Shown: positions 10,711 through 38,976, counted from the first letter of the stretch. The stretch is DNA of 39,925 bases from Pseudobdellovibrionaceae bacterium (GCA_019637875.1 JAHBUW010000022.1:1-39925); one strand, 5' to 3'. A program made the numbers and translations. The notes: a model not told the origin generated them from the letters alone.

Positions 10711-10837
10711 CCCCTCACCGGAGCTTAAGGACCTCCATTGTGGGCGACGTGGCGGCTAACCTTTGGGCGAAAAGGACGCTTCCGGTCACCTCCTTTTCTT
10801 CAGGGTTTTGGCCACGCGATTGCACTTTCATCCTTAT

Positions 10838-18525: not shown

Positions 18526-21500
18526 TTAGAAGGGAGCGGGCAAGGCTTGCGGGATCCACGCGCGCTCGAAGTCACCAAACGCGTTGTACCAGTTATTTCC
18601 CCAGCAGCGGATCTCTTGTGCGTCCGTGCGGGCGCAAGCGCGGTAGCGACCCATTTCGATGTCGGTAAAACTGTAGGTCGAGTCGATCTGGACCGGGACG
18701 TCGGCATTGACCGCAAGCTCACCCGCGATCCCGTCGACCCATCCTCCCCAGCACATCAGCTCGCCCGTCGCGCGGATACCACAACTGTTGACCTCGCTGA
18801 CCGAAACTTTCGTGTAAGCGCTCGTATCCGAAGTCAAAGTCGGCGTCGATTGGCTGCTCGACGCATTGTTACCGATCTGGCCCGTCGTCCCCAGTCCCCA
18901 GCAGACAACGCGGCCGCCGGTCGCGCGGATCGCGCACGCGTGATTCGTGGCCACCGCAACGTCAAGGTAGCTTGTGCCGGACGTGATGACCAACGGCGTG
19001 TTGCGGTTCGTTCCGCTGCCGTCACCAAGCTGATCATTGTTATTACGTCCCCAGCACTTCAGCGCGCCGCCGGTGGTGATTCCGCACGTCGACTGGTATC
19101 CGACTTCGATTTTCGAGTAGGTCGTACCGCTATCGACCGTGACCGGCGCCGTGCGGGCCGTATTCGAGGCGTCTCCAACCTGGCCGTAGTCGTTACGTCC
19201 CCAGCAGCGGAGGGTTCCGCCAGTGGTGATCGCGCAGGTCGTGCGGTCGCCGATGGAAACCGACGTGAAATTGTTCGTGCCGTCGACGGCGGTCAGGCTG
19301 CTGGCCGCGAGATTCACCCCGTTCCAGCTTCCATGACCCGCACAGTACAGCTTCCCGTTCGTGCGGATCGCGCAGATATGGTAACGGCCCGTGGCGACCT
19401 GCATATAGTCGTTCGCGGCGTCGACCCAGATGTTCCCGGTCATGTCGGGCATCGAGCTGATCCCGAACATTCCCGCGGTATCCGAGCTCGAGTTCCCCGT
19501 ACAACGGATCTTGTTCGTCGCGGTGATATTACACGTCGCACGTTCCCCGTAGCCTGAGTCCACGCTGTTGAACTTGCGCAGACCATCGAAAGGCGTCGGC
19601 TTGTATTTCCGGGTCACGGGTTTACCGTCGCCGGAGGTCGGCATGTACTTCTCCCAACCGCCCGACAGCACCATGTTGCTGTTCGGGGTGGCGTCGGCTT
19701 TGATCGTCGCCCACGTTTGCGTATAAGCCGTATTCACGTCCGAGAACTTACGCGAGCCCTGCACCGACGAGAAGACGGTGACGTTGTCGGCGGTCCCGAT
19801 GTCATCCATCAACATCCCGTAGTTTCCCTGGCCCGTACAGCGCAGGTCATTGTTGTCGGTGATCCCGCAAGTCGTTTCGCGGCCCGCACTCACCATGATG
19901 TAGTTCACACCGCCGTCCACCTGTTGCGGTGAAGTTTGGTTGGTGCCGTTCCCGGTTCCGAGTCGTCCCGAGCCGCCGGCTCCCCAGCATCTGACTTTGG
20001 ACGCGCTCGTCACGCCGCAAGTGTGCGTATCGCCCGCTGAAACCATCGTGTAGACCTGCGATTCGACAAGATTCATCGCCGTATTCGGATTCGTGGTGCC
20101 ACCGCCCTGGCCCGAGCCGTTCGATCCCCAGCAGTAGACGTAGTTGTTCGAGGTCCGGATCGCGCAACCGTGGGTCGCGCCGGTCGTCAGCGAGCGGTAT
20201 TTGTTCGCGTCGATTTTCCGCGGCCGGTTCACGGTCGAAGTCGCGTCCGTACGCGCTTGACGGTTATTTGAACGTCCCCAGCAATAGAGATCGTCGCTCG
20301 CGTCGATCGCGCAAGTGAATTCCGACCCGGCCGAGATTTCCTTCACGCCCGGTCCGAAAGCGGTGACGCCGTCGAATTGGGTTCCGATCGTTTGCGGTGT
20401 ATTGAACGTCGCCGTGACGCCGTTCCCGAGCTGGCTGTAGTTATTGTAACCCCAGCACTTCAGAGTTCCCGAAGCGTCCGTTCCGCCGTCCGTGATCGCG
20501 CAGGCGTGGTTACCGCCGGTAGAAACTTTGCGGTAGTCATTCGTCGAGTCGATGACCACGTAGGTCTCTTGATCCGTATTCGTCCCGTTACCGACCTGAC
20601 CGACGGCTCCGCGTCCCATACAACGCAGTTTTTTGTCGGCGCCGATGTAACATGCGGACAGGTAACCCGAACCTTGGCCTTGCGGCAACGATACGGGGGG
20701 ACCCGAGACGCCGTCGTTGTCACGGATCAAAACGCGGTGATAGATCTTGCCCGCCGCGTGGACGTATTCGTAGTCGGCGTCGTAAGCCGCGATATCCAAG
20801 TAGGTGTCGGTTTCGTCCGTGGCGTTTTCGAGGGCTTGGAACGTCAAGTTCGCGGTCGTTTGTCCCGCGGGGATCAAGACGGTTCCGGCGGCCGCGACTC
20901 CCGATGTGTGCACGCCGTCCGCGGCGGTACCGACCGCGCGGTAGATCAAGTTGACGTCGTAGACCTTGGGCGCGCCCATTTTAACTTCGACGGTCACGGT
21001 CGAGCCCTCATTCACCGCCTGGAAGAAGCTCGTGAACTCGATGTTCGTGTCGGTCACGTCATAGACGTAGAACGGGAAGGTGTTGATCGGCGTCAAAGCC
21101 ACGCAGCTCGTCTTGTTGCCGAGCGCGTCTTCCGCGGTCGCGGTGAAGCCGTACTTCCCAGGAGCCGGAATTTGCGGCAGCACGATGTCCACCGACGTCC
21201 CCGTTTGACCCGTAAAGGTCGCGTACAGATTCGGGTTGGTACAAGTCGCGTCGGTGTAGATCTTGATAATGTCGTTGTTGAAAATCCCGACGACGCGGAT
21301 CGTGGGCGTCCGATTCCAGTGCACGAAACGTCCCGGGATCAGGTTCGCGATGCTCGTCAAAGTCGGCGGAGTCGTATCACGCGTGTACGTCGCGGTCGCG
21401 GTCGAGCACGCCGAAACCGTTCCCACGGAGTTCGTGCGGTTCGCGTAGTAAACGTAGTTTCCGTCCGAAGAAACCGCCGCGGTCAGCGTGATTTCGGTCT

Positions 21501-24500
21501 GACCCGTCGCCACCGTACCCGACGAGACCTGGCTTGAACAAAGGCCGTCGGTGAACAAACGGACGACGTCGTTCTGCGCGACGCCTTCGACTTTGATTTG
21601 CACCGAGTTGCTCGTCGCGGGCGAAGAAACCGGCAACATCCGGGTCAAAGGAGTCGGCGCGCTGGGGGCGATCCCCGTCCCGGTCACGTTCTTCGCCACC
21701 GATTGGTTGTTCGCGGCATCGAAATAATTGATCGTCGCCGTCGCGGGTTGAGTGCCCGTCGCCGTCGGCGAGAAGCGAACGATGAATGTACAAGTCGCGC
21801 CCGCATTCAAAGTCGTCAAACAAGTGCCGCCGCCGGGGAAAGCTCCGCCCGGATACGAATAAGGTGCCACGATGGTCGCACCGCTCATGGACGTCGCCGC
21901 GACACCACCGCTATTCGTGATCGTGAAAGTTTGATCCGAAGTCGCGCCGGTGACCAAATTGCCGAAATTGTGCGTTCCCGCGGGCGTGATCGCGAGTGAA
22001 GCCGGTCCTACGCCCGTTCCAGTCAAATTCCGCGAAGACTGCGTCGAAATCAATCCATCGTTGTACGTCACGTCGATCGTCGCGTTCTGCACGCCCGTCA
22101 CCGTCGGCGAGAACACCATCACGACCGTACACGACAGACCTACACCCAACGAGGTCAAACAGTTTCCGCCGGTGCCGGGGAACGTTCCACCTTTGAAAGT
22201 GTACGGCGCCGAGATGCCCGAGCCACCAATCGACGTCGCCGCGACTCCACCCGAGTTCGTGACCGTCAAGGTCCGCTCGTAAGAAGCACCGGTCGCCACG
22301 TTTCCGAAGTCCAATGTGGGATCGTTCGAAAGTGTCAGTTGCGCTGCGGTCGAACCGACGCCCGTCATATTCTGCGTCGCGCTCTGCGCATTTGCGCCGT
22401 CGTGGTAGTTGATGGTCATCGCGCCCGAATGCGTACCGGTCGCCGAAGGCGTGTAGTTGACGATGATCGTACACGTCGCCGACGGATTCAAACTTCCGCC
22501 GCTCGTACACGAACCGCCCGTTCCGGGGAACGATCCGCCCTTGTAAGCGTAGTGCGTGGGCAATGCCGCGCCGGTGATGTTCGTCGCCGCCACGGCACCG
22601 TTGTTCGTCATGGTGAACGTATGCTCGGTCACGCTCGTGGTCACGCGCGTTCCGTAGTCGTACGGATTGCCGCCGTCGAGGGCGAGCGCCGCCGGATTCA
22701 CCGCGATACCGGTCAAGTTGACCGAGGTGTTCAGGTTCGAGATCGTATTCGAGTAGTTCACCTGGATCGTCGAGTTGTGGGTCCCGTTCGACGACGGCGT
22801 ATAAGTGACGACGATATCGCACGATTGCGAGCCGTTAAGCGTCGTGCCGCAGTTTCCGCCCGCGCCGGGGAACGCTCCGCCTTTATAGGAGTAAGGGGCG
22901 ATCATCACGGCCCCCGCCACGCTGACCGCCTGCGCGCCCCCCGTGTTGGTCAGCGTGAAGGTCACCTCGTTCACCGAGCCGCGCGCGACCGTGTTGAAAT
23001 TGTAAGTCGGTCCCAGATTCAGGACCAGCGTCGCGGGCGAAGCCCCGATCCCTTGCACGGGACGGGTCACGCTCGTCGTCGCGAGGCCGGTATTGTAGTT
23101 CATCGTCACGTTGCCCGAGAACGAATTCACCGCCGTCGGCGCGAACGCGATGACGACCGTACAGTTCGCGCCGGGCGCAAGCGTCGCCGAACAGTTTCCG
23201 CCCGTACCGGGAGCCGATCCGTCTTTGAAGCCAAACGGTGCCGCCAGGCCCGTGACGTTCATCCCCGTCGCGGTCACGCCACCGGTGTTCGCGATGGTGA
23301 ACGAACGATCTTTCGTGGCGCCATTGGCGACCGTGCCGTAGTCGTAAGTTCCGGTTTCCGAAATCGTCAGCATCGCGGGATCCGCCGAAGAACCCTCGAT
23401 CGCGCGGACCGAGTTCGTTCCGGCCACCCCGTTGTGATAGTTGATGCTCATGTTGTTCGCGTACGAATTGGTAACCGTCGGCTGGAAGCGCACGACAACC
23501 GTACACGATGCGCCCGCCCCCAAGGACGTACTGCAATCCCCGCCCGTGCCGGGATAAGTTCCGCCCTTGAAGCTGAACGGCGCGGCCAAGCCCGAGCCAC
23601 CCAGTGAATCGGCGGGGACCCCGCCCGTATTCGAAATGGTGAAGCTGCGCTCCGCGACGCCACCATTCGCGACCGAACCGAAGTTATAAGACGGCGGATC
23701 GCTGATCACGATCTGCGCCGGCGCCGCACCGAAACCGGTCAACGTACGCTGCGCGGTCTGGTTGACCGCACCGTCGAAGTAGTTGATCTGGATTGTGTCC
23801 GACTGCGAACCCGTGCCCGTGGGCGCGAAGGTCACGACGATCGTACACGAAGCCGAAACCGCGAGCGAAGTGTTACACGTTCCGCCCGATCCGGGATAAG
23901 CGTTGCCACCCTTAAAGGTGTAAGGCGCATCCAGACCCGTGCCGCCCGCGATGTTCGCGGTGAAATCACCCGAGTTCGTCACGGTCAAAGTCATGTCCGC
24001 CGAAGCGCCCGTCGCGAGCGTGCCGAAGTCATACGAGGCATTCGTGATCGCGAGCGTCGCCGGTGTCAGGGCCGTACCCTGCATCGGACGCGTGACCGAA
24101 GCCGCGGCCAGACCGTCGTTGAAGTTCATCACAAAGTCTTGGTTGTGGGTCGCGACGTTGGTCGGCGAATACACGATCACGACCGTGCAGCTCGCTCCCG
24201 GCGCGATCGACGTATTACACGATCCGCCCGTGCCGGGATAAGCCCCGCCTTTGAAACCGAACGGCGCGCTGAGCGACGTCGGCGCCACCGCGGTCGCGGT
24301 CACGCCACCGGTATTCGTCACGGTGAAGGTATTTTCCGCCGATCCGCCACGCGCGAGCGTCGGGAAGATGTAAGTGCCGGCCCCCGAGATCGTGAGCGTC
24401 GCCGGAGGCGCGCCCGTTCCCTGCAAACCTTTCGCGAGCGTCTGCACGGTCGCGCCGTCGTTGTAACCGATCTCGGCCGAATCGCCATCGGTTGTGCTGG

Positions 24501-27500
24501 TGGTCGGATTGAACTGCACGACGATCGTACACGAGGCCGCAGGGTTGATCGTCGTTCCGCAAGTTCCGCCCGTTCCGGGATATCCCGAGACGCCTTTGAA
24601 CTTGAACGGCGCGGCCAAGCCCCCGCCCGTCACGGCCGTCGCGGCAACCCCGCCCCCGTTCGTGATCGTGAAGGTCGTTTCAGCCGATCCGGTCAAGGCC
24701 ACGGGGCCGAAGTCGTAAGTGCCCGAACCCGACATCGTGAGCGACGCCGGCGGTGCGCCCGTTCCTTGAACGTTACGGCTGACGGTCTGTCCGCTGACGC
24801 CGTTATTGAAAGTGATATCCAAAGTCCCGCTCAAAAGTCCCGTCGCCACGGGCGAGTAGGTCATGACGACCGTACACGAGCCGCTGGCCGCGAGCGTGCC
24901 GCCGGTACAAGTTCCGCCCGTACCGGGGAAGCCCCCGCCTTTGAACGTGAACGGTGCCGAGATCCCTCCGCCCGAAAGCGAGGTCGCGGTCAATCCACCC
25001 GTGTTGGTCAAAGTCACGCTCATGTCTTTCGCACCACCGGTCGCGACGGTGCCGAAATCGAGCGGGTTCGCGCCCGAGATCGCGATGTTCGCCGGGGCCA
25101 CGCCCGTCCCTTGCACGTTGCGAGTCGAAAGCACGACGCTCACGCCGTTGTTGTAAGACATTTCAATCGCGTCGGATTGCAGACCCGTACCGGTCGGCGT
25201 GTACGTCACGACGATCGTGCACGAAGCCGAAGCGGCGATGGGCGTCGCGCAGTTCCCCCCGGTGCCGGGGAATGTTCCGCCTTTGAACGCGAACGGCGGC
25301 GCCAAGCCCACTTCGGTCACGCTCGAAGCATCATAACCACCGGTGTTCTGCAAAGTGAAGGTCTGGTCCGCCGAAGCGCCGACCGCGATCGTTCCGAAGT
25401 CGACGGGATTCGAGCCCGAAATCGTCAACACGGCGGGCGCCGACGAAACTCCCGTCAACCCGCGCTGCACGGTCAAGTTCTGCACGCCATCGTTGTACGC
25501 CATCTCGAGCGTGGAATTGTGCGTTCCGGTCACCGTGGGCGAGAACGTCACGACGACCGTACACGTCTGTCCGCCGGGCAGCGTGAGTCCGCACGTCCCG
25601 CCCGAACCGGGATAGAGGTTTCCTTTGAAACTATAAGGCGCCGAGAACGCCGTCGGCGCGAGGGCCGAAGCCGTGAATGCGCCCGAGTTCGTGATCGTGA
25701 AGGTCTTGTCGGTCACGCTACCGTTCGCCTTCGCGCCGAAGCTGAACGTGCCGGTCTCGGAAATCGCGAGGACCGCGGGCGCCGACGAAGAACCGATCAC
25801 GTCACGCGTGACTTGTTTCGCCTCGACCCCATTGTGGTAAGCGACTTCAATAGTATCCGCCATTGCCGCCGTCGAAAGCGGCGCGTAGGTGACGACAAAT
25901 GTACAGGTCGCGCCAGCCGCGAGCGTTCCGCCGCTACAAGTTCCACCCGTTCCGGGGAAGCCGCCGCCCTTGAACGTCACGGGCGCGGCAAGTCCACCAC
26001 CCGCGATACCGGTCGCGGTCAAACCACCGGTGTTGGTGATCGTGAACGACTTGTCGTTCACGCTACCGTTCGCGACGGCACCGAAGTCCCAGGTCGCCGC
26101 AGGCGTGATGGTCAAAAGAGCGGGCGCGACGCCGACGCCCGTCACCGTACGGGTCGATGTCACGACCGACACCCCGTTATTGTATTGCATCTGCAATGTG
26201 CCGTTTTGCGTGCCCGTCGCGGTCGGCGTGTAGGTCACGACGATCGAGCACGAAGCCGTCGCGGACAAGACCGTACCGCAGTTCCCGCCGGTGCCGGGAT
26301 AAGTCCCACCCTTGTAATAGAACGGTGCCGCCAGGGCGATCTCGGCCATCGTGGAGGCGTCGTAGCCTCCGGTATTCGTGATCGTGAAACTGTGATCGGC
26401 GATGGCGCCCACCGCGACGGTGCCGAAGTCATAAGGATTGGAATCCGAAATCGTCAGCACCGCCGGCGGCGAAGACGTTCCGGTCATGTTGCGCACCACG
26501 CTCTGGGCCGTCACGCCGTCATTATAGGAAATATCCAAGGCCGCATTGTGCGTTCCGGTGACCGTCGGCGAATAGCTCAAGACGATGGTACAAGTGCCGG
26601 ACGGCGCGAGCGTGATACCGCAAGTTCCGCCCGAACCGGGATAGACCGAACCTTTAAAGTTATAATGAGTCGCGAAGGCCGCCGTCGAAATCGCACTGGC
26701 CGCGAACGCGCCCGTATTTGTGATCGTGAAGGTCGCATCGGTCACGCTGCCGTTCGCTTTCGGACCGAAGTTGTACGTGCCCGCACCCGAAATGGTCAAA
26801 ACCGCCGGCGCCGAAGACGATCCGGTGAAGGCCAACGCCGAGGTTTGACCGCTGACGCCGTTGTTGTAATTGACGTTCAAGGTGCTCGACATCGAGCCCG
26901 TCACCGTCGGCGCATAGGTCACGACGACGTTACAAGAAGCTCCCGCCGCCAGCGAAGTACTACAGTTCCCACCCGTGCCGGGGAAGGTTCCGTCTTTGAA
27001 GGTGATCGGTGCCGACAGACCCACGCCCGTCAGCGACGCCGCCGCCAGACCGCCCGTGTTCGTCAGCACGACGATCTTGTCGTTCACGCTGCCGTTCGCC
27101 ACCGCACCGAAGTCGAAGCTTGCCGAAGGATTCAACACGATCAAGGCCGGCGCCACGCCGGTCCCTTGGACGTCACGTGAAACCGACTGCGTGCTGACCC
27201 CGTTGTTGTACTGATAGACGATCGAGTCCGTCGCCAGACCCGTGCCGACCGGCGAGAACAGCATCACGACCGTACAGTTCGTCGAAGCCGCGATCGTGGT
27301 CGCGCAAGTTCCGCCCGTTCCGGGGAACGCGCCGCCTTTATAACCGAAAGGTGCCGCCAGGCCGGTCTCGTTGACCGCGGTCGCATCGTACGATCCCGTA
27401 TTCGCCAGCGTGAAGGTCAGCTCCGAAGTCGCGCCGGTGGCGCGCGTACCGAAGTCGACCGGATTGGTTCCCGAAATCGTCAACACCGCCGGCGGTGTCG

Positions 27501-30500: not shown

Positions 30501-33500
30501 TCAAGATCAAATCCGCCGAACCCGTCACCGGAACCGCGCCAAAATTCAAGCCCGATCCATGCGACAGTGTCAGCTGCGCAGGCGACGTACCGGTTCCGAC
30601 CATGTCACGTGTCGTCCCCTGCGTCGCGACCCCATCATGATAAGAGAACTCGAAAGTATCCGAGAAACTTCCCGCGGCGGCCGGCGCGAACTGCGCGACC
30701 ACGGTACACGTCGAAGCCGCCGGAATGGAGCCCGAACAAGTCCCACCCGCACCCGGGAACGAGCCACCCTTGAAGCTAAACGGGGCATCCAGCCCGCTAC
30801 CGGCGATGGAAGAAGCCGGAACCCCACCGGAGTTCGTCAATACGAAGGTGTGCTCCGCCACCGAACCCGCCGCGCGCGTTCCGAAATCGAACGAGGTCGC
30901 GTGCGAGATCGTCACGCTGGCCGGAGCCGCGCCCGTTCCGTTCAAGCCTTGATTCAACGATGTCGTGGTGACGCCGTTCTGGTAGCCCATCGCGAGCGTC
31001 ACGCTGTGTGCGCCCGTGGTCGTCGGAGCGTAAGTGACGATGACCGTACACGCACCCGCCGGCGCCAAATTCGCACCGCAATCCCCGCCCGTGCCGGGGT
31101 AAGATCCACCTTTGAACGCGAAGGGAGGTGTCAGCCCCGAAGGCGTGAGCGCGCTCGCCGCCACGCCACCGGTATTGGTGATCGTGAAACTCTGGTCGAG
31201 CGTCGATCCCGTCGCGCGCGTACCGTAGTTGTAAGAGGGCGAATTCGTGATCGTGAGGTTCGCGGCGGTCGCACCGGTTCCGGTCATGCCGACGCTCTTA
31301 TTTTGTGCCTGCGCACCGTCATCGTAAGCGAAAGACATCGTCGCATTTTGCACGCCGGTCACGGTCGGAGTGAACGTCACGACGACCGTACACGAAGCAC
31401 CGCCGTTTAAGGTAGCGTTGCAGGTTCCGCCCGAGCCGGGGTAGACCCCGCCCTTGTAAGCGTAAGGTGCGCTCAACGCACTTTGCGTCAGCGACGTCGC
31501 CTGGAAACTTCCCGTATTCGTCAGCGTGAACGCATGTTCGCCCACGGCGCCGATGGCGACGGTATTGAAGTTGTAAGTCGGAGTGTTGCTGATATTGATG
31601 TTCGCCGGCGAAACCGCAGTTCCCTGCACCGAACGCGACTCACTCACCGAGCTGACGCCGTTGTGATAGTTAACGTCGATCGCATCGGAGTGGTTGCCCA
31701 CCGCCGACGGAGCGTAAACGACGATCACCGTACAGCTGCCGCCCGCCGCGAGCGACGTCGTACAGGTTCCGGCCGTACCGGGATAGCCGCCACCTTTGAA
31801 TGTGAACGGCGCATCCAGGCCCGACCCACCCAAGGAAGCCGCAGGAACCCCGCCCGAGTTCGTCAACGTGAAGATACGTTCTTTCGTGCCGCCGATCGCG
31901 AGCGTTCCGTAATCGTAGAAGGGCGCATCGGTAATCCCGATCAAGGCGGGCGCCGCACCGATCCCTTGCACATCGCGGGTCGAAGTCTGCCCGGACGCTC
32001 CGTTATTATAAGAGATCTCGATGGTGTCGTTCTGCGCGCCCGTACCGGTCGGCGCGAAACGCACGATGATCGTACACGAAGCGCCGATATTCAGTGTCGT
32101 CAAACATGAACCGCCGGTGCCGGGATAAGTGCCACCCTTGAACGTGTACGGAGCGTCCAACCCCGCGCCGGCGATGGAGGTCGCCGCGAAGTTTCCGTTA
32201 TTGGTGACGGTCACCGACCGCTCGATGAAACCGCCGGTCGCGACCGTACCGAAATCGACGTGCGGTGAATCGCTCAGATCCAGGATCGCGGGCGTGACGC
32301 CCGTTCCGGTCACGTTCCGCGACGACACCGCCGCGATCAGACCGTTGTGATAATTCATTTCGATGGTCGAGTTATGGACCGCCACCGTGGTGGGGTTGTA
32401 GTTCACGACGATCGTACACGACTGCGTCGCGGGCAACGAAGTCGAACAAGTTCCGCCGGTCCCCGGATAAACACCGTCTTTGTAAGTGAACGGCGCCGAA
32501 ATTCCTGCACCCGACATCGCCGTCGCGGTGACGCCGCCACCGTTAGTCACCGTAAAGGATTTGTCGCGCGATCCGCCCTGCGCCACGTTACCGAAGTTAT
32601 AAGTCGGACCGTCGGTGATCGTCAGCTGCGCCGGCGGCGCCGCGGTCCCTTGCAGGGGACGTAAACCGGTACGCGCCTGCGCGCCGTCGAAGTAAGCGAT
32701 TTCGATTTCGTCGTTATAAGAGCCGTTGACGGTGGGATTGAACGTCACAACGATCGAGCAGGTCGCGGCCGCATTGATCGTGGTTCCGCACGTCCCGCCG
32801 GTGCCGGGATAAGGTCCGCCTTTGAAGCTAAACGGCGCGGCCAGGCCCGATCCCGCGACCGCGGTGGCCGCGAGAGACCCCGAGTTCGTGATCGTCAAAA
32901 CTTGGTCGATCGAAGCCGTCGCCGGATAAATCCCGAAATCGAAAGTCGCGCCGTGGGAAACGGTCAGCAAAGCCGGCGCCACGGCCGTCCCGACGAGATT
33001 GCGCGACGACGACATTGTCGTCACGCCATCGTTATACGAAATCTGCACGGCACCCGAATCCGAACCGGGAGCGCTCGGGTTATAGGAAACGACAACCGTA
33101 CAAGTCGAACCGGCATTCAAGTTCGTATTACAAGTTCCGCCCGTGCCCGGATAGCCGCCACCTTTGAAGCCGAACGGCGCGGTCAGTCCGCCTCCCGACA
33201 TCGCGGTCGCGGGCACACCGCCCGAGTTGGTGAGCGTCAAGGTCTTGTCCGCAGTTCCGCCCGCAGCCAGAATGCCGAAGTCGTGTTGAGGTCCGTCACT
33301 GATACCGATGGAAGCGGGCGCCGCACCGACGCCGCGAATCTCGCGGGTCGCGTTCACCGAGGACACGCCGTTGTCGTAAGCGAGGTCAAGCGTGATGATC
33401 TGCGAGCCCGTCGCGGTCGGTACGTACTCCACGACCAGCGTACAACTTCCCGCCGCCGCGATTTGCACGAGGCAAGTTCCGCCGGTGCCGGGATAACTTC

Positions 33501-36500
33501 CGCCTTTGAAACGATACGGCAGGCTGACGCCCGACGAAATCACGGTCGTCGCGGGAACGCCGCCTGAGTTACTCACGGTCAAGCTCACTTCACTAACCGA
33601 ACCGGTCGCCTTTGTGCCGAAGTCGTAGAACGGGCCGTTCGAGATCGCGAGACTTGCGGGCAAAGCCCCTTGTCCCTGCAGCGCACGGCTGGAAGTCTGG
33701 CTCAAGGCACCGTCGAAGAAACCGATCTGGGCCGTGGCGTTGTGCGCCCCCGTCGTCGACGGCGCATAGCTGACGACCATCGTACAGGTCGCCCCGGCCG
33801 CCAGCGAAGTCCCGCAGTTCCCGCCGGTCCCCGGGAAGGGTCCGCCTTTATACGAGTACGGCGTGGTCAAACCCGAACCGGTAAGGCTCGTGACCAAATA
33901 TCCGCCCGTGTTCGTCAGGGTGAACGAGTGGTCTTTCGTCGCCCCCACCGCCACGATACCGTAGTTGAAAGTCGGACCATCGGTGATCGAGATCGCTCCC
34001 GGCGGAACCGCCGTACCGGCAAGGGCCCGCAGAGTCGTCCGCGCGACCACGCCATCATTGTAATTCACTTCGAGGTCGTCGGTCGGCGTGCCCGGTGCCG
34101 TCGGTGCGAAAGTCACAACGATCGTGCAAGACGCTGATGCCGCGAGGTTCGCGCTACAGTTCCCGCCCGTTCCGGGGAAGAGTCCGCCCTTGAAGCTGAA
34201 CGGCGCCGCAAGGCCCGTCCCCACGATCGCCGATGCGGGAACTCCGCCCGAGTTCGTGAGCGTGAAGGTGTGGTCGGCGGTGGCGCCCACGGGCAAGGTT
34301 CCGTAATCCAAAGTCGGTCCATGGCTCAGCGACAGCGACGCCGGAGCCGCGCCCGTACCGGTCACGCCGCGGGTCGAAGTCTGACCGCTCACGCCGTTGT
34401 TGTAAGTCACTTGGATCGTGCCCGACTGACTGCCCGTTGCCGTCGGAGCGTAGGTTACGATGAACGTACACGACGCGCCGACGTTCAAAGTCGCCGCGCA
34501 AGTTCCGCCGCCGGGGAAAGAGCCACCCTTGAAAGTGAAGGGCGCCGAAAGGCCCGCTCCGCCGAGCGAAGAAGCCGTGAAGCCGCCGCTATTGGTGACG
34601 GTGAAGGTCCGGTCGAGGCTTCCGCCCGTGGGCACGGTCCCGTAATCGTAAGTCGGACCCGCGTCCACGACCAAAAGGGCCGGCGGGACCGCAGTTCCCG
34701 TCAGCGCACGGGTGCTCGAAACGGCGACGAGTCCGTTATTGTAGTTCAGAGTGAGGTTTTCGTTGAAAGTCGCGACCGTACCCGGCGCGAACTCGATCAC
34801 GAGCGTACACGTTCCCGAAGCCGGAAGATCCGTCGCGCAGGTTCCGCCCGTGCCGGGATAGCCGCCGCCCTTCCACAGAAACGGCATATTGAGTGCGGCG
34901 CCCGCCATCGCGGTCGTCGGCACGCCGCCCGTGTTCGTAACGGTCAACGTCGCTTCGCGAGTCGCGCCTTGGGGCCAGCTGCCGAAATCGTAAGTCGGCG
35001 CGCCGCTGATCGAAAGCGAACCCGCCGGTGCGCCGACCCCTTGCAGATCGCGATTCGCCTGCACCGAGCCGACTCCGTTGTGGTAAGCCACTTGAACCGA
35101 GCTGGCGAAAGGACCGTTCGCGGTGGGCGCGAAAGTCACGACGACCGTACAGTTCCCGCCGGCGGTCAAAGTCGCCGCGCAAGTTCCGCCCGTGCCGGGA
35201 TAGGTGCCGCCCTTGAAAGAAAAAGGCGCCGTCAGTCCCAAACCGCTCATCGCGGTCGCGGACAATGAACCCGAGTTCGTGACGGTGAACGTGCGCTCGG
35301 CCGTACCGGTCGCGGGGATCGTGCCGAAATTGTAAAGCGGACCATCGCTGAGCGCGAGTTGCGCGGGCGCGACGGCGTTACCAACGACGTTCCGCGTGGT
35401 TCCTTGAGTCGCCGCGCCATTGAAGTAACCGATCTCGATATCGTCGGAATAAGGCGCGACCGCGGTCGGCGCGAATGTCACGACAAGCGAACACGAAGCA
35501 CCGGCCGCCAAAGTCAGTCCGCAGTTACCGCCGGTGCCGGGGAAGGCTCCGCCCTTGAATGCGAAAGGCGCCGCGAGGCCCCCGCCGCTGATGGCGCTAG
35601 CCCCCACACCGCCGCCATTCGACAGCGTGAAGATTTTCTCGCGCACCGCACCCATCGCGACGTCGCCAAAATCGTAAGCGGGGCCTTCATCCAAAGAAAG
35701 GGACGCCGGCGCGGCGCCCGTTCCCGAAAGCGTGCGCGTCGCCAACTGCGAACCCGCACCGTTGAAGTAGGAAATTTCGATATCGTCGGTTTGCAGTCCC
35801 GTGACACCCGGATTGTAGGTGAGCACGATCGAACAGCTCGAGCCCGCATTCAGCGAAGTCGAACAAGTTCCGCCCACGCCGGGGAAGGCTCCACCCTTGA
35901 ACGCGAACGGTGCCGCCAATCCATCACCCAGAACGGTCGTCGCGATGAACTGGCCGCCGTTCGTGACCGTCAGGGTCGCTTCCGCGATTCCGCCGACCGC
36001 GATCGTACCGAACGAATAGAACGGCGAACTCGAGATCGCGAGATTTGCGGGATTCACTCCGGTTCCGGTCACGGCGCGGTTCGTGGTCGCGTTCGTGACG
36101 GTGTTATAATAACTCAACAGCATGCTGCCGTTGAACGTCCCCGCCGACGACGGCGAGAACTGCAAGACCACCGTACACGACGCCGAAGCCGCAAGCGTCG
36201 CCGCGCACGTTCCGCCCGTTCCGGGATAGGTTCCACCCAAGAAAGTGAAGGGCGCCGAAAGACCCGCACCCGTCATTGCCGAAGCGGGAACGCCCCCGGT
36301 GTTCGTGACCGTCAACGTCGATGTCGAAGAAGCACCGTAAGGCAAAGCACCGAAATCGAAAGTCGGTCCATTTGAGACCGCCAGTGTTGCGGGCGTGGTG
36401 CCGACCCCTTGAACGTCACGCACCGCCTGTTGCGAAGTCGCACCGTTGAAATAAGAGAGTTCAACCGTATCCGAAAGAGTTGCGAGCGTCGTCGGCGCAA

Positions 36501-38976
36501 AAACGACGACCACCGAACAGTTCACACCACCCGCAAGTTGCGTACCGCAAGTTCCACCGGTGCCGGGATAAGTTCCACCCTTGAACGTGAAAGGTGCGGC
36601 CAAACCCGCACCCGCCATCGTGGTGGCCATATAGTCGCCCGTATTCGTGACGAGCAATGTGGTTTCCGCATGTCCGCCCGTCGCGACGGGACCGAAATCG
36701 TATGAAGGCGCGTTCGAGAACACGAGCGTCGCCGGGGTCACGCCCGTCGCGGTCAGATCGCGATGCGATGTTTGCGTGGTGTTCCCATCGTTAAAGGAAA
36801 GGTCGACGGTGTCCGTGGAAACACTCGCACTGAGTGCGGCGTAGCTGACCACGATCGTGCAGTTCGCGCCGCCCGCCAAGCTGGCACCGCAAGTTCCGCC
36901 GGTCCCGGGGTACGATCCGCCTTTGAAGCTAAAGGGCGAAGCGAGTCCCGAGCCGGCGACCGACGCCGCAGCGTAGCCTCCGCTGTTTGAGACCGTGAAA
37001 ACATGATCCGTGACCGAGCCGATGGGCTTCGATCCAAAATCATAGGTCGGGCCGTCGCTGATAGAAAGATTGGCGGGCGTGACCGCCACCCCTTTGAGCG
37101 AACGGAGCGCATGCACGGCCGCCACACCGTTACTGAAAGTCAGGTCCAAGTCCTCGGCATGACTCCCGGTTGACAGCGGTGCGTAAGTCACCACGATCGT
37201 GCAAGCCGCTGCGGGCATCAGCGACGTCGCGCAAGTTCCGGCCGTCCCCGGGTAAGTTCCACCTTTATAGCTGAAAGGCGCCGGCAAGGCCGCGGCCGAA
37301 ATGGCGGTGGCCTCGGTGCCGCCCGTGTTCGTCACCGTCACGGTCAGATCCGTTGAACTGCCGACCGGACGCGTACCGAAATTCACATCCGGGGTCGGCG
37401 CAATCGCGAGCACCGCCGGCGGGACCGCAATCCCTTGCAATGCGCGCGTCGCTTGCGCCGCCGCGACGCCATTGGAATAGTTGATCTCGATGGTGTCGCT
37501 CGAGGGGCCAGCCGCCGTCGGGATATAAGTCACGACGATATCGCAAGAAGAGCCTGGCGAAAGCGCGCCGCCGCAGTTTCCGCCCGTGCCGGGATAAGCT
37601 CCGCCTTTAAATGCGTAGGGCGCCGCCAAACCGCCGCCCGTCACGAAGCTCGCGTTGTACTGACCACTGTTCGTGACCGTAAAGGTTTGCTCGGACGAGT
37701 TTCCGATGACGAGGGTTCCGAAGTTATGCGTCGGTCCGTGACTGATCGCGAGCAAAGCCGGCGTCACCGCGGTTCCTTGAACCATGCGCTGTGCCTGCTG
37801 GGAACTTAATCCATCGAAGTAATCGATGTTCATGCTCCCGGTTTGCGTCCCGGTGGCGGTGGGCGCGTAGCGCACGACAACCGTACATGTTCCGTTGCCC
37901 CCGGGGATCGCGGCGCCGCAAGTGCCACCCGTTCCCGGGTATGCGCCACCTTTGAACGTGAACGGCGAAGAAAGGCCCGAGCCCGAAACCGTGCGGGCGG
38001 CAACGCCACCCGAGTTGGTGATGGTGAAGGTCTTCTCGAGCGCGGCACCGACGGGCAACGTTCCGAAATCGTAACCGACCGGTCCATCGCTGACCGCGAG
38101 CGAAGCCGGCGTCGCGCCCGTACCTTCCACCGGACGGTCGCTTTGCGAATTCGCATCACCATTGAAGTAAGTGAGCTCGATGATGTCGTTCGCGGGGCCC
38201 GTGGTGGGCGGATTGAAAGTCACGACGATCGTACACGAAGCATGCGAATCGAGATCTGCGGTACAAGTTCCGCCCGTTCCGGGGAAGGCTCCGCCCTTAA
38301 AGTCGAACGGTGCCGCAAGCCCAGCACCGGCGATACTGGATGCGGCGTAGCCTCCGGCGTTCGTCACGGTCAAAACTTTTTCTGCGGTGGCGGTCGCGAC
38401 CACGGGACCGAAATTGAAAATGGGTCCATCACTGATCGCGAGGTTCGCGGGTGAAGCCCCTTCACCGAAAACGCTGATGACCGCGCTTTGTTTTTCGTCA
38501 CCGGTGACTTCACCGTACTTCACCGTAACGTTGAATTCGTGACGCGCTTCCGTGGCGGGAAGGTAGCTAACGGTGATTTGACAGTCCTTGCCCGAAAGCA
38601 AACCACCGGTCATCAACGTACACGTTTCGCTCGTGACGCTCATGGAAGTGATCGCGCCCGATCCTTCGATCTTCGTGATGAAAAGCGTTTTTCCCGATTG
38701 GTTTTTAACGTCGAACGTTTTGGTCAGCGGTGTGGTCGCCGTGAGCAGCACTTTGCCGAAGTCCCAGGTGTTCGGATCGAAATCCAAAGAGTACGTGGGA
38801 GTTTGTCCGTTACCTTCGTTGATGGGGCCGATGAGTTTGTCGACAGAGTCAGAACCCGCGGAACAAGCGGACAGAAAAAGCGCGAGCGCGGACGTCGCAA
38901 CGATATGCAACGACGTCTTCCATCCCGTCGGAATGACCTGCCTCAAAAAAGAAGGCAAATTCGTAAGTAAGCTCAC
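18526..38976 (-). CDS. Giant surface lipoprotein: 50 ASH/HYDIN-like repeats, Calx-beta, 14 RCC1 units
   Basis: This 6816-residue protein has a signal peptide with lipobox LSAC (C38), one divergent beta-sandwich domain (about 61-185) and 49 regular repeats of about 114 residues (186 to about 5770). Two Ig-like segments (about 5773-5975), a Calx-beta-like domain (about 5976-6089) and 14 RCC1-like units (about 6107-6816) follow. Each regular repeat reads as FG...TNxG, then a glycine-rich PGTGGTC, C-T-IVV and a final GTG-xPA, as in ASPM/SPD-2/Hydin (choice-of-anchor D) domains. It should be anchored by lipid in the outer membrane and reach far from the cell as an adhesin or contact fibre; that role is inferred. 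The start is GTG without a clear ribosome-binding site, so the exact N terminus is uncertain. The frame is unbroken over 20 kb. Confidence 0.93.
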   Translation of the reverse strand: MSLLTNLPSFLRQVIPTGWKTSLHIVATSALALFLSACSAGSDSVDKLIGPINEGNGQTPTYSLDFDPNTWDFGKVLLTATTPLTKTFDVKNQSGKTLFITKIEGSGAITSMSVTSETCTLMTGGLLSGKDCQITVSYLPATEARHEFNVTVKYGEVTGDEKQSAVISVFGEGASPANLAISDGPIFNFGPVVATATAEKVLTVTNAGGYAASSIAGAGLAAPFDFKGGAFPGTGGTCTADLDSHASCTIVVTFNPPTTGPANDIIELTYFNGDANSQSDRPVEGTGATPASLAVSDGPVGYDFGTLPVGAALEKTFTITNSGGVAARTVSGSGLSSPFTFKGGAYPGTGGTCGAAIPGGNGTCTVVVRYAPTATGTQTGSMNIDYFDGLSSQQAQRMVQGTAVTPALLAISHGPTHNFGTLVIGNSSEQTFTVTNSGQYNASFVTGGGLAAPYAFKGGAYPGTGGNCGGALSPGSSCDIVVTYIPTAAGPSSDTIEINYSNGVAAAQATRALQGIAVPPAVLAIAPTPDVNFGTRPVGSSTDLTVTVTNTGGTEATAISAAALPAPFSYKGGTYPGTAGTCATSLMPAAACTIVVTYAPLSTGSHAEDLDLTFSNGVAAVHALRSLKGVAVTPANLSISDGPTYDFGSKPIGSVTDHVFTVSNSGGYAAASVAGSGLASPFSFKGGSYPGTGGTCGASLAGGANCTIVVSYAALSASVSTDTVDLSFNDGNTTQTSHRDLTATGVTPATLVFSNAPSYDFGPVATGGHAETTLLVTNTGDYMATTMAGAGLAAPFTFKGGTYPGTGGTCGTQLAGGVNCSVVVVFAPTTLATLSDTVELSYFNGATSQQAVRDVQGVGTTPATLAVSNGPTFDFGALPYGASSTSTLTVTNTGGVPASAMTGAGLSAPFTFLGGTYPGTGGTCAATLAASASCTVVLQFSPSSAGTFNGSMLLSYYNTVTNATTNRAVTGTGVNPANLAISSSPFYSFGTIAVGGIAEATLTVTNGGQFIATTVLGDGLAAPFAFKGGAFPGVGGTCSTSLNAGSSCSIVLTYNPGVTGLQTDDIEISYFNGAGSQLATRTLSGTGAAPASLSLDEGPAYDFGDVAMGAVREKIFTLSNGGGVGASAISGGGLAAPFAFKGGAFPGTGGNCGLTLAAGASCSLVVTFAPTAVAPYSDDIEIGYFNGAATQGTTRNVVGNAVAPAQLALSDGPLYNFGTIPATGTAERTFTVTNSGSLSATAMSGLGLTAPFSFKGGTYPGTGGTCAATLTAGGNCTVVVTFAPTANGPFASSVQVAYHNGVGSVQANRDLQGVGAPAGSLSISGAPTYDFGSWPQGATREATLTVTNTGGVPTTAMAGAALNMPFLWKGGGYPGTGGTCATDLPASGTCTLVIEFAPGTVATFNENLTLNYNNGLVAVSSTRALTGTAVPPALLVVDAGPTYDYGTVPTGGSLDRTFTVTNSGGFTASSLGGAGLSAPFTFKGGSFPGGGTCAATLNVGASCTFIVTYAPTATGSQSGTIQVTYNNGVSGQTSTRGVTGTGAAPASLSLSHGPTLDYGTLPVGATADHTFTLTNSGGVPASAIVGTGLAAPFSFKGGLFPGTGGNCSANLAASASCTIVVTFAPTAPGTPTDDLEVNYNDGVVARTTLRALAGTAVPPGAISITDGPTFNYGIVAVGATKDHSFTLTNTGGYLVTSLTGSGLTTPYSYKGGPFPGTGGNCGTSLAAGATCTMVVSYAPSTTGAHNATAQIGFFDGALSQTSSRALQGQGALPASLAISNGPFYDFGTKATGSVSEVSLTVSNSGGVPATTVISSGVSLPYRFKGGSYPGTGGTCLVQIAAAGSCTLVVEYVPTATGSQIITLDLAYDNGVSSVNATREIRGVGAAPASIGISDGPQHDFGILAAGGTADKTLTLTNSGGVPATAMSGGGLTAPFGFKGGGYPGTGGTCNTNLNAGSTCTVVVSYNPSAPGSDSGAVQISYNDGVTTMSSSRNLVGTAVAPALLTVSHGATFDFGIYPATASIDQVLTITNSGSLAATAVAGSGLAAPFSFKGGPYPGTGGTCGTTINAAATCSIVVTFNPTVNGSYNDEIEIAYFDGAQARTGLRPLQGTAAPPAQLTITDGPTYNFGNVAQGGSRDKSFTVTNGGGVTATAMSGAGISAPFTYKDGVYPGTGGTCSTSLPATQSCTIVVNYNPTTVAVHNSTIEMNYHNGLIAAVSSRNVTGTGVTPAILDLSDSPHVDFGTVATGGFIERSVTVTNNGNFAATSIAGAGLDAPYTFKGGTYPGTGGSCLTTLNIGASCTIIVRFAPTGTGAQNDTIEISYNNGASGQTSTRDVQGIGAAPALIGITDAPFYDYGTLAIGGTKERIFTLTNSGGVPAASLGGSGLDAPFTFKGGGYPGTAGTCTTSLAAGGSCTVIVVYAPSAVGNHSDAIDVNYHNGVSSVSESRSVQGTAVSPANINISNTPTYNFNTVAIGAVGEHAFTLTNTGSFQATSLTQSALSAPYAYKGGVYPGSGGTCNATLNGGASCTVVVTFTPTVTGVQNATMSFAYDDGAQAQNKSVGMTGTGATAANLTITNSPSYNYGTRATGSTLDQSFTITNTGGVAASALTPSGLTPPFAFKGGSYPGTGGDCGANLAPAGACTVIVTYAPTTTGAHSVTLAMGYQNGVTTTSLNQGLNGTGAAPASVTISHATSFDFGTRAAGSVAEHTFVLTNSGGVPASSIAGSGLDAPFSFKGGSFPGAGGTCSGSIPAASTCTVVAQFAPAAAGSFSDTFEFSYHDGVATQGTTRDMVGTGTSPAQLTLSHGSGLNFGAVPVTGSADLILTVTNSGGFVANSINVTGVSAPFSFKGGSYPGSGGNCGTSLGVSSSCQIALTFAPSGLGAFNAALDVGYDNGVNVVSSTRAMQGTGAPPATLTISEAGTYNFGVLANNSSAERSFTITNTGGVTATAMGGAAFSAPYSFKGGTYPGTGGTCAATLGATLTCSVVVVYAPTTIAVHNANLTMNYNDGLTAQSTTRPLTGESVAPGLLSLTDTPSYDYGTIAIGASRDHTFTVTNTGSFVSTSIGGSGLSAPFTFKGANVFPGTGGTCTTSLNPGASCTIVVTWAPIATGAQSATMSVNYFSGSGNLSSTVGVQGVGANVALISMTDGPLYDFGDRATGSQTDKSITLTNTGGVPATSVTGGGLAAPFTFKNGTFPGTGGTCTGGTLAAGASCTIVVTFAPGANGTVNDTIEIDYNNGLVAHQVTRDLRGTGQPPAALTITNLPTYDFGPVATTGFKDRVFTITNTGGLTATALDGTGLALPFKFKGVAGTFPGTGGTCVTTLAPAATCTIVVSFLPTVDGPASDTINLSYNDGAAVQALDLGVQGTGAPPAVLAISGSGTFNYGTVANGGLRDQSFTVSNTGGVEATVVAGAGLAAPFGFKGGSYPGTGGNCGTSIPVAGNCTVVVTYSPTNIATHNSNLQIDYFDGLVSQNSVRPVQGTAVAPALLDISGVNPVAFGTIAIGNSSEVSFTVTNNGSYASSSMSGAGLSAPFNFKGGAYPGTGGNCAASLAVGASCTVVVTFTPSGTGVNNSTLQVLYNDGAGSATSSRTVTGTGTTPANITISEAPFYNFGAVANGSVNLRSFTLTNIGGVAAASLGGGGLALPFSFEGGTFPGTTGTCGTSLAPGATCTAVVSYAPTVSGPVSDDIDITYHNTVSSQSVSREVRGSSTAPALLAISGAGTYNFGPKANGSVTDATFTVTNNGQFNASAISVAAFATSYGFKGGSFPGSGGTCDITLAPAASCTVVLTFAPATSGTWNANLDVGYNNGVTTVNVARPLTGTSTPPAVLTISGTNPVDFGTRATGATSELTFTLANTGSYDATAVNETGLAAPFGYKGGAFPGTGGTCATTIAASTNCTVVMLFSPVGTGLATDSIVYQYNNGVSTQSVSRDVQGTGVAPALIVLNPSASFDFGAVANGSVNDKIVVLTNTGGLAAASLTGVGLSAPITFKDGTFPGTGGNCSTSLAAGASCNVVVTYAPTVTGSMSSTLNVNYNNGVSGQTSALAFTGSSSAPAVLTISGAGTYNFGPKANGSVTDATFTITNTGAFAASAISTAAFATHYNFKGSVYPGSGGTCGITLAPSGTCTIVLSYSPTVTGTHNAALDISYNDGVTAQSVVRNMTGTSSPPAVLTISDSNPYDFGTVAVGAIADHSFTITNTGGYDASTMAEIALAAPFYYKGGTYPGTGGNCGTVLSATASCSIVVTYTPTATGTQNGTLQMQYNNGVSVVTSTRTVTGVGVAPALLTITPAATWDFGAVANGSVNDKSFTITNTGGLTATGIAGGGLAAPVTFKGGGFPGTGGTCSGGTLAAGATCTFVVTYAPLSTAAMADTIEVAYHNGVEAKQVTRDVIGSSSAPAVLAISETGTFSFGAKANGSVTDKTFTITNSGAFTASALAPTAFSAPYSFKGNLYPGSGGTCGLTLPGGQTCTVVVTFSPTVTGTHNSTLEMAYNDGVQNLTVQRGLTGVSSAPAVLTISGSNPVDFGTIAVGASADQTFTLQNTGGYDASSVTEVGLAPPFAFKGGTFPGTGGNCATPIAASASCTIVVTYTPTGTGLQSDAIEMSYNNGVSVVLSTRNVQGTGVAPANIAISGANPLDFGTVATGGAKDMSVTLTNTGGLTATSLSGGGISAPFTFKGGGFPGTGGTCTGGTLAASGSCTVVMTYSPVATGLLSGTLDITFNNGVSGQTVSRNVQGTGAPPASLTMSGSGTYDFGPVALTGSAETTFTITNGGGVAATAVTGGGLAAPFKFKGVSGYPGTGGTCGTTINPAASCTIVVQFNPTTSTTDGDSAEIGYNDGATVQTLAKGLQGTGAPPATLTISGAGTYIFPTLARGGSAENTFTVTNTGGVTATAVAPTSLSAPFGFKGGAYPGTGGSCNTSIAPGASCTVVIVYSPTNVATHNQDFVMNFNDGLAAASVTRPMQGTALTPATLAITNASYDFGTLATGASADMTLTVTNSGDFTANIAGGTGLDAPYTFKGGNAYPGSGGTCNTSLAVSASCTIVVTFAPTGTGSQSDTIQINYFDGAVNQTAQRTLTGFGAAPAQIVISDPPSYNFGSVANGGVAERSFTISNTGGVPADSLGGSGLAAPFSFKGGTYPGTGGDCSTSLGAGASCTVVVRFQPTVTNSYANNMSINYHNGVAGTNSVRAIEGSSADPAMLTISETGTYDYGTVANGATKDRSFTIANTGGVTATGMNVTGLAAPFGFKDGSAPGTGGNCSATLAPGANCTVVIAFAPTAVNSFSGNVTMNYNTGLATTSVTRPVQGIGASPATLVLNLGPTYNFNTVARGSVNEVTFTLTNTGGAQAVSVAGAVMIAPYSYKGGAFPGAGGNCGTTLNGSQSCDIVVTYTPSSNGTHNSTIQVNYSNTISNLNTSVNLTGIAVNPAALALDGGNPYDYGTRVTTSVTEHTFTMTNNGAVAATNITGAALPTHYAYKGGSFPGTGGSCTSGGSLNPSATCTIIVNYTPSATGTHSGAMTINYHDGANAQSATQNMTGVGSTAAQLTLSNDPTLDFGNVATGASYERTLTVTNSGGVAATSIGGSGISAPYTFKGGTFPGTGGNCLTSLGVGLSCTVVMVFSPTVTGVQNATIDVTYNDGLISTQSSRNLTGTGVGPASLAITPAGTHNFGNLVTGATSDQTFTITNSGGVAATSMSGATIVAPYSYPGGAFPGGGTCLTTLNAGATCTFIVRFSPTATGTQPATATINYFDAANNQSVAKNVTGTGIAPSAPTPLTRMLPVSSPATSNSVQIKVEGVAQNDVVRLFTDGLCSSQVSSGTVATGQTEITLTAAVSSDGNYVYYANRTNSVGTVSACSTATATYTRDTTPPTLTSIANLIPGRFVHWNRTPTIRVVGIFNNDIIKIYTDATCTNPNLYATFTGQTGTSVDIVLPQIPAPGKYGFTATAEDALGNKTSCVALTPINTFPFYVYDVTDTNIEFTSFFQAVNEGSTVTVEVKMGAPKVYDVNLIYRAVGTAADGVHTSGVAAAGTVLIPAGQTTANLTFQALENATDETDTYLDIAAYDADYEYVHAAGKIYHRVLIRDNDGVSGPPVSLPQGQGSGYLSACYIGADKKLRCMGRGAVGQVGNGTNTDQETYVVIDSTNDYRKVSTGGNHACAITDGGTDASGTLKCWGYNNYSQLGNGVTATFNTPQTIGTQFDGVTAFGPGVKEISAGSEFTCAIDASDDLYCWGRSNNRQARTDATSTVNRPRKIDANKYRSLTTGATHGCAIRTSNNYVYCWGSNGSGQGGGTTNPNTAMNLVESQVYTMVSAGDTHTCGVTSASKVRCWGAGGSGRLGTGNGTNQTSPQQVDGGVNYIMVSAGRETTCGITDNNDLRCTGQGNYGMLMDDIGTADNVTVFSSVQGSRKFSDVNTAYTQTWATIKADATPNSNMVLSGGWEKYMPTSGDGKPVTRKYKPTPFDGLRKFNSVDSGYGERATCNITATNKIRCTGNSSSDTAGMFGISSMPDMTGNIWVDAANDYMQVATGRYHICAIRTNGKLYCAGHGSWNGVNLAASSLTAVDGTNNFTSVSIGDRTTCAITTGGTLRCWGRNDYGQVGDASNTARTAPVTVDSGTTYSKIEVGYQSTCGITTGGALKCWGRNNNDQLGDGSGTNRNTPLVITSGTSYLDVAVATNHACAIRATGGRVVCWGLGTTGQIGNNASSSQSTPTLTSDTSAYTKVSVSEVNSCGIRATGELMCWGGWVDGIAGELAVNADVPVQIDSTYSFTDIEMGRYRACARTDAQEIRCWGNNWYNAFGDFERAWIPQALPAPF
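18529..20658 (-). repeat. 14 RCC1-like units (two possible 7-bladed propellers)
   Basis: About 51-residue units, each with a pattern like HACAIT, then LKCWG, then GQLGNG, fill the C terminus (residues about 6107-6816). Fourteen units can be counted, of which the seventh is degenerate and lacks both cysteines. Known RCC1 proteins form 7-bladed propellers, so the count fits two. Most units keep two cysteines (one in HxCAI, one in CWG), suggesting a disulfide in each blade of an exported domain. Confidence 0.85.
20710..21661 (-). other. Ig-like and Calx-beta-like segment of the giant protein
   Basis: Between the repeat array and the RCC1 units lie two related Ig-like segments (residues about 5773-5975). 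They share the pattern VxLFTDGLC / IKIYTDATC and end in AEDALGN-type strands. A Calx-beta-like domain follows (about 5976-6089), with NEGSTVTVEVKM, LIPAGQTTANLTF and ending RDNDG. Calx-beta domains often bind calcium; the acidic loops here fit, but binding is not shown. Confidence 0.7.
21662..38421 (-). repeat. 49 tandem ASH/HYDIN-like repeats, period about 342 bases
   Basis: Forty-nine in-frame repeats of 113-116 residues are read in order from residue 186. All carry exactly two cysteines with nine residues between, except repeats 2, 27, 37 and 40 (ten) and 47 (eleven). Repeats 12 and 49 lack one residue in the PGTGG turn. Repeats 26, 28, 41 and 43 have one or two extra residues just before it. 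Protein similarity is high while the DNA has drifted mainly at third codon positions, so the array is old and kept by selection. Confidence 0.95.
25066..28146 (-). repeat. Three-domain higher-order unit repeated three times (repeats 31-39)
   Basis: Repeats 31/34/37 share FGAVANGSVN, 32/35/38 share F-AKANGSVTD or FGPKANGSVTDATFT with SGAG or SETG before it, and 33/36/39 share SG-NPVDFGT with SYDA/GYDAS. Each trio is 1026-1029 bases long and the block is 3081 bases. This shows duplication of three-domain segments rather than of single repeats. Confidence 0.85.

Follow-up and report, generated by a model that had tools for sequence, protein, structure and literature searches.

Conserved linkage of a 6,816-residue lipoprotein gene to genes for a flagellar-type stator and a FliF-FliG-like fusion supports a model in which the giant lipoprotein serves as an extracellular arm for a PMF-driven machine that spans the envelope and is assembled from components of the flagellar motor; we put the probability of this reading at roughly 55%. 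The genes lie on a 39,925-nt stretch (the window, contig C22) of the draft genome of a Pseudobdellovibrionaceae bacterium (4.0 Mb, 30 contigs). A motor-driven surface arm with a lipid-anchored, propeller-tipped fiber appears not to have been described: the literature searched, with subscription papers and preprints outside its coverage, yielded no account of such a motor-fiber cluster and, in agreement with a sequence-only reading of the window that preceded this analysis, none of a lipoprotein with an ASH stalk and an RCC1 tip.

The coding sequence occupies 18526..38976 on the minus strand, as do all features below unless marked (+). The sequence-only reading had given a single unbroken frame here without its strand; 20.4 kb are indeed open, with 6,816 codons, no internal stop and one terminal stop. 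The GTG at 38976 is an assumed start codon, and the true start may lie anywhere within codons 1–24. The product has a mass of 676 kDa and a pI of 4.9, with Gly, Thr, Ala, and Ser being abundant.

Behind a hydrophobic stretch, the protein carries the lipobox recognized earlier (ALALFLSA-C38, with the L-S-A-C motif at 38863..38874), which ends at the lipidated Cys38 and is followed by Ser; homologues in other clusters likewise possess a lipobox. In E. coli, Ser after the lipid-modified Cys directs a lipoprotein to the outer membrane (+2 rule), and from its +2 residue the giant lipoprotein is expected to be sorted there. A V-D-K-L-I-G motif (38827..38844) that is common to the lipoproteins of homologous clusters is a candidate docking tag. 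Residues 65–153 (38518..38784) exceed the cutoffs of both the DUF1573 (PF07610, 31.5 bits) and the HYDIN-type (PF22544, 25.6 bits) Pfam models for a beta-sandwich. Residues 173–5768 (21673..38460) comprise 49 choice-of-anchor-D (ASH/HYDIN-type) units with a period of ~114 residues and a unit spacing of 113–117. The NCBIfam model choice_anch_D (NF012200) matches every one of these units, 41 of them above its curated cutoff, and a genome-wide search found its matches confined to the giant gene; PF22544 scores 156–180 bits per 1,000 residues on the array. The 50 beta-sandwich domains counted by eye are thus recovered as one DUF1573-like domain plus 49 choice-of-anchor-D units. With ~4 nm per domain, the general value used in the earlier reading, a fiber reach of ~200 nm is plausible.

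The segment between the array and the tip had been read as Ig-like and Calx-beta-like domains. The Ig-like part (residues 5780–5970, 21067..21639; Cys pairs 5813/5857 and 5912/5958) has a weak match to Big_13 in its favor (E 0.0011, below the cutoff), but its predicted structure mostly has a pLDDT <50. The Calx-beta-looking part (residues 5971–6095, 20692..21066), read by eye and conserved in the homologue from genome G090, has no Pfam match even at E 10 and is modeled with low confidence, leaving this domain unconfirmed. The count of 14 RCC1 units, in contrast, is upheld by 13 clear motifs plus a degenerate one and by the Pfam RLD model (320 bits). In the structure predicted for residues 5780–6816, the propeller blocks have pLDDT values of 85–97, and the part N-terminal of the propellers is poor. 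Comparison with solved RCC1 propellers by VIA-align matched residues ~6054–6434 (19675..20817) to RPGR (4jhn; Z 41.1, rmsd 2.1) and residues ~6467–6812 (18541..19578) to UVR8 (8gqe; Z 45.7, rmsd 1.9). Since RPGR and UVR8 align to separate residue ranges, the model contains two distinct seven-bladed propellers, in line with the double propeller tip proposed earlier. The predicted product is thus a long, lipid-anchored multidomain protein with two RCC1 propellers at its end, and it is plausible that it is surface-exposed and contacts prey or surfaces.

The 49 units have exactly two cysteines apiece, separated by 10 residues in 44 units, by 11 in four, and by 12 in one. Further Cys pairs are located in the RCC1 blades (13 pairs), at Cys119/132, and in the Ig-like region (two pairs), so that the total of 131 cysteines equals one lipidated residue plus 2 × 65, and each of the 130 others has a possible partner. 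From this regularity we infer 65 disulfides; such a pattern is the imprint expected from selection on a secreted, disulfide-bonded protein. The gene that follows encodes a thioredoxin-fold (DsbA-like) lipoprotein with a CPDC motif (16911..18419; Pfam Thioredoxin_4, 46 bits), the N-terminal part of which reads like a SurA-type chaperone domain. The CPDC motif is kept in two related loci (L169 and L170), and close homologues of this CxxC lipoprotein were found only in these clusters with RCC1 fibers, a restriction that fits a role in forming the fiber disulfides. Four loci with Cys-rich RCC1 lipoproteins (L044, L052, L056, and L063), however, have no CxxC lipoprotein nearby.

The sequence-only interpretation is thus supported in part; it overlooked that the protein is not isolated and adjoins a conserved motor cluster. 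The giant gene heads this cluster and is followed on the same strand by genes for the CxxC lipoprotein, a TPR-like secreted protein (16093..16698), a MotA-type stator subunit (15395..16096), a MotB-type stator subunit (14707..15411), and the 509-residue FliF-FliG-like fusion p509 (13181..14710); the last four genes overlap by a few bases. The TPR-like protein matches Pfam TPR_14 below the cutoff (0.0034), is conserved, and is a lipoprotein in some relatives. Upstream of and divergent from the giant gene lies p200 (39212..39868 (+)), the ~200-residue product of which has a signal peptide and a C-terminal Phe; these features and its size predict a small outer-membrane beta-barrel, and tblastn detects homologues in other clusters (7e-37 to 1e-8).

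MotA is recognized by Pfam MotA_ExbB (63 bits). In a tree of the cluster MotAs and the MotA/TolQ/ExbB proteins of three genomes, which splits into 23 versus 19 rows, all cluster MotAs fall into the flagellar-type clade (99/100), apart from the sampled TolQ/ExbB-type relatives, and on the flagellar-type side they cluster as a separate group (16 rows, 81/93). Rows L140 and L143 of this tree are mis-extracted and sit on long branches, and the Agl rows are unlabeled. The topology agrees with the division into FIT and GIT stators (PMC12505986). MotB combines a plug (MotB_plug, 41.5 bits), a transmembrane Asp read in the sequence (SYADML), and an OmpA-like peptidoglycan-binding end, for which the OmpA match of 26.8 bits is slightly below the cutoff of 27.2.

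p509 comprises a signal peptide, ~110 periplasmic residues, one transmembrane segment, and ~300 cytoplasmic residues, and its assignment comes from profile comparisons. Pfam models do not recognize p509 directly, a profile search of the PDB placed FliG entries at the top with an E value no better than 0.4, and an AlphaFold model built from five sequences was unusable (pLDDT 35). Compared with FliG_C, the C-terminal end of p509 scores 25.8 (60 column shuffles: mean 10.9, maximum 16.2); the N-terminal part of the family scores 27.1 against FliF (40 shuffles: maximum 18.7). A sister family, p570 (L044, L052, L056, L063, and L110–L114), has no match in the PDB profile search and scores 49.2 against FliF 240–464, including the LPG motif and the transmembrane segment (25 shuffles: maximum 20.6), 68.5 against FliG (probability 95%; shuffle maximum 19.8), and 108 against p509 (probability 98%; shuffle maximum 17.9). 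FliG_C exceeds the Pfam cutoff in fusion-family members of genomes G005, G006, and G037. On the strength of the alignments to both FliF and FliG, we refer to the family as FliF-FliG-like fusions, with FliF represented solely by its C-terminal part; the p509 copy in the window is a divergent member, and the sequence profiles suggest that it functions as a rotor. The flagellar FliF and FliG of this genome are encoded elsewhere, on contig C1. Short proteins with weak FliG_C matches (frames of 123–235 residues at G000:C5:48292, C8:169592, and C10:170690) are also encoded outside the flagellar locus, and most relatives possess them likewise. Near another short FliG_C-like protein (~166–200 residues), the same genome encodes a 1,145-residue large lipoprotein (L118:1032-4469 (+)), located outside the control stretches described below. 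Locus L115 was dropped as a FliG_C-type locus, as its match is weak and the product looks like an MgtE-type protein.

Relatives of p509 are found in nine of 60 related genomes, and a profile of the family detects members in 16 of the 141 genomes of the order, corresponding to 14 of 66 genera. Genes for the TPR-like protein, MotA, MotB, p509, and p200 co-occur across loci, with order and strand sometimes rearranged; named loci with sister clusters belong to Bdellovibrionota, Oligoflexia, and Bacteriovoracaceae, which suggests Bdellovibrionota for the present organism too. Viral contigs contain no relative. Among the 14 loci in which the contig reaches far enough for an assessment (L081, L167, and G091 being left out), a large lipoprotein of 929 to at least 3,790 residues adjoins the motor genes in 13 (the window, L083–L089, L166, L168, L169, L170, and L172); the sole exception, L171, has the motor genes and no big lipoprotein nearby. 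As a control, twenty 20-kb stretches taken from this genome and related ones were put through the same test; they contained five frames of at least 900 residues and no lipoprotein of that size.

The fiber is not unique: homologues with an ASH stalk and/or RCC1 tip are encoded in unchanged gene order in two further families. In family f10 (L169), the gene order is that of the window, and 43% identity to the tip extends over 988 residues, which include the Ig-like and Calx-like parts. In family f4 (L170/L173), the contig ends within the fiber frame, which has at least 3,790 residues, at least 22 ASH units by motif, and an RCC1 tip; the fiber gene is followed by those for the CxxC lipoprotein, the TPR-like protein, MotA, MotB, p509, and p200. 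Elsewhere the lipoprotein slot is occupied by other stalks and tips, read from sequence as NHL-like propellers (L083–L086, L166), LamG-like tips (L172, L087, L168), or GLUG-like tips (L088). The segment after the lipidated Cys contains a shared motif (CSAGSDSVDKLIG in the window, CSSSGDSIDKLFG in L086, and CGSSSGQIDDLFG in L085). The corresponding pattern is found in nine of the 54 putative lipoproteins of these loci, all nine being cluster lipoproteins; as it was drawn from those same nine proteins, it describes them and is no independent test.

In our model, MotA and MotB would form a stator held at the peptidoglycan, and ion flow would turn or push the FliF-FliG-like fusion as a minimal inner-membrane rotor. 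The TPR-like protein and the p200 barrel would relay force to the outer membrane, where the lipid-anchored fiber, docked via the short conserved motif beside its lipidated Cys, would be moved or tensioned by the motor. The 50-domain stalk would provide reach; the predicted disulfides, one per stalk domain (65 in total) and formed with the assistance of the CxxC lipoprotein, would provide stiffness; and the two propellers would serve as an adhesive tip that binds prey or surfaces. Such an arm could provide grip during gliding or prey contact, comparable to SprB with GldLM in Flavobacterium, and the machine is a candidate for the gliding or prey-contact machinery of Bdellovibrionota, the phylum of the bacteria-eating Bdellovibrio. 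Some observations weigh against a motor-driven arm: no outer-membrane export route was identified for the 676 kDa lipoprotein, p200 with its ~200 residues is too small to be one, and L171 has the motor genes but lacks a big lipoprotein.

The need of a 6,816-residue lipoprotein for an energized exit raises the alternative that the motor serves to drive lipoprotein export or positioning across the outer membrane, as GldLM does for type IX secretion, and that the fiber is then a static adhesin. The motif after the Cys is common to otherwise different cargoes, as a sorting signal would be, and the exchangeable tips and the presence of two or three lipoproteins in some clusters also agree with export. 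Yet the conserved genes include neither a translocon-sized barrel nor a secretion ATPase, and the FliG-like torque domain suggests mechanical work; we consider an export or positioning motor unlikely.

The motor genes could also be accessory flagellar parts, with MotA/MotB as an alternative stator, the fusion as a switch component, and the lipoprotein as an unrelated operon passenger. The position of MotA among flagellar-type stators and the presence of flagellar FliF and FliG in the genome are compatible with this, as is the treatment of the three MotAB pairs of B. bacteriovorus as flagellar (PMC11323537). Against it, a large lipoprotein repeatedly accompanies the motor genes, at 13 of 14 loci that vary in stalk, tip, and gene order; moreover, the cluster MotAs form a separate clade, and p509 is no spare FliG because it has its own FliF-like part. 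An accessory flagellar function is distinctly unlikely.

Default orientation of lipoproteins toward the periplasm, the use of ASH/HYDIN domains as scaffolds in eukaryotic cilia, and the lack of an identified export factor would suit a periplasmic scaffold or track stretched out along the cell body, similar to GldJ in Bacteroidota, with no surface arm. However, modules typical of ligand binding (RCC1 and NHL propellers, LamG-like domains) make up the tips at the homologous position, and it is hard to see how a track would use a pair of propellers at its end; this arrangement is very unlikely.

That the giant frame is an assembly artefact or a gene in decay is hardly credible: the array is repetitive and, in a 30-contig draft, a distance of 949 bases separates the 5′ end of the gene from the window's end, but 20.4 kb contain no stop, exact repeats of at least 35 nt are absent from the gene, exactly two cysteines are kept in all 49 units, and other families possess homologues of like layout. 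Nucleotide identity between the repeat units averages 0.65 with a maximum of 0.745, which, together with the absence of exact repeats, makes a short-read collapse of repeats unlikely. A TRF scan did not detect the array because the units are too diverged; a higher-order periodicity of three units is faint. GC content by codon position is 0.53/0.59/0.75.

Among known systems, SprB moved by a PMF motor would be the closest working analogue of the motor-driven arm proposed here. SprB of Flavobacterium has ~6,500 residues and forms a ~150 nm filament (PMC13104615). The SprB/GldLM system of Flavobacterium johnsoniae thus shares a giant adhesin of nearly equal size and a proton-driven 5:2-type envelope motor, whereas the present cluster has a lipobox, flagellar-type MotA/MotB, a FliF-FliG-like fusion, and ASH and RCC1 domains. 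Agl-Glt of Myxococcus xanthus (AglRQS, GltA-K, CglB), relatives of which exist in Bdellovibrio (PMC3169522), likewise combines a PMF motor of the MotA/TolQ superfamily with TPR-like and barrel proteins and an outer-membrane lipoprotein adhesin. It differs from our cluster, which has a flagellar-type MotA, a MotB that ends in a peptidoglycan-binding domain, a FliF-FliG-like fusion, and, as candidate adhesin, not the VWA protein CglB but a giant stalk tipped with propellers. The flagellar motor itself (MotAB, FliF MS ring, FliG switch) has a homologous stator family and homologous rotor domains, but here one protein unites the FliF-like and FliG-like parts and contains just one FliF-like domain; no flagellar export, rod, hook, or filament genes were found beside the clusters read, which instead encode an envelope lipoprotein and a barrel. 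Surface proteins with choice-of-anchor-D (NF012200) or RCC1 repeats belong to common unit families, and RCC1-tipped proteins are widespread; they differ from the giant lipoprotein in its 49 units, double propeller, and linkage to a motor cluster. Long or adhesive prey-contact surface proteins of B. bacteriovorus include the mosaic adhesive trimer fibers. Its MIDAS adhesins (Bd0875) are prey-contact surface proteins as well (PMC11003981). Both occur in the same phylum and share the prey-contact role proposed for the fiber but have other folds and no motor genes.

With 11% of the genomes of the order, the p509 system is not a general gliding machine unless the p570 version serves likewise. Near-full-length p570 relatives are present in ~77 of the 291 phylum genomes sampled (hand count, E 1e-43 or better); in most other genomes the FliG-like part of the profile also matches frames of ~340–380 residues (E 1e-8 to 1e-16), the size of flagellar FliG. 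The p570 version is found in genus g7, represented mostly by complete genomes of 3–4 Mb. In one of these, L110 (G006:C1:3093000-3112900) encodes MotA/MotB and a 577-residue FliF-FliG-like protein, with no large lipoprotein within the 20 kb read. The p570-linked MotA of G006 maps to 3.11 of 3.99 Mb and, by map position, presumably corresponds to motAB2 of B. bacteriovorus HD100 (bd3021/bd3020); the three flagellar-type MotAs of G006 sit at positions that fit motAB1, motAB2, and motAB3 and may correspond to them. Against the motor-driven arm, all MotAB pairs of B. bacteriovorus reportedly support the flagellum.

A 2026 review lists the gliding motor, adhesins, and force transmission of Bdellovibrio as unidentified (PMC13104615), and the present gene cluster provides concrete candidates for all three. 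As a tentative proposal, a flagellum-less rotary machine, in which MotAB and a one-piece FliF-FliG-like rotor drive lipid-anchored giant fibers with exchangeable propeller or lectin-like tips at the cell surface, would together with its p570 sister be the missing gliding and prey-gripping motor of Bdellovibrionota. If this holds true, a flagellar stator and rotor are reusable as a small module that drives an outer-membrane fiber, with bearing on flagellar motor evolution and on the passage of force across the Gram-negative envelope. That tips are exchangeable points to a platform in which binding specificity evolves and the motor stays constant.

Several additional genes were observed in the course of the analysis. 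Tandem pairs of RCC1-tipped lipoproteins (~1,110–1,220 residues) in Oligoflexia and Bdellovibrionales MAGs (L044, L056, L063) adjoin genes for TPR-like protein, MotA, MotB, p570, and p200. In L111 (1805-19900), a p570-type gene is followed by three co-directional giant lipoprotein genes (1,555, 1,779, and at least 2,130 residues). Frames with 25–38 RCC1 motifs, far above the need of a single propeller, occur in marine archaeal and Tepidamorphus MAGs (L037, L039, L049). The window itself also encodes a secreted 690-residue protein without any Pfam match (8528-10600) and, at 10763-11920 (+), a secreted protein with a Gln_deamidase_2 (protein glutaminase-like) domain that may be an effector or enzyme.
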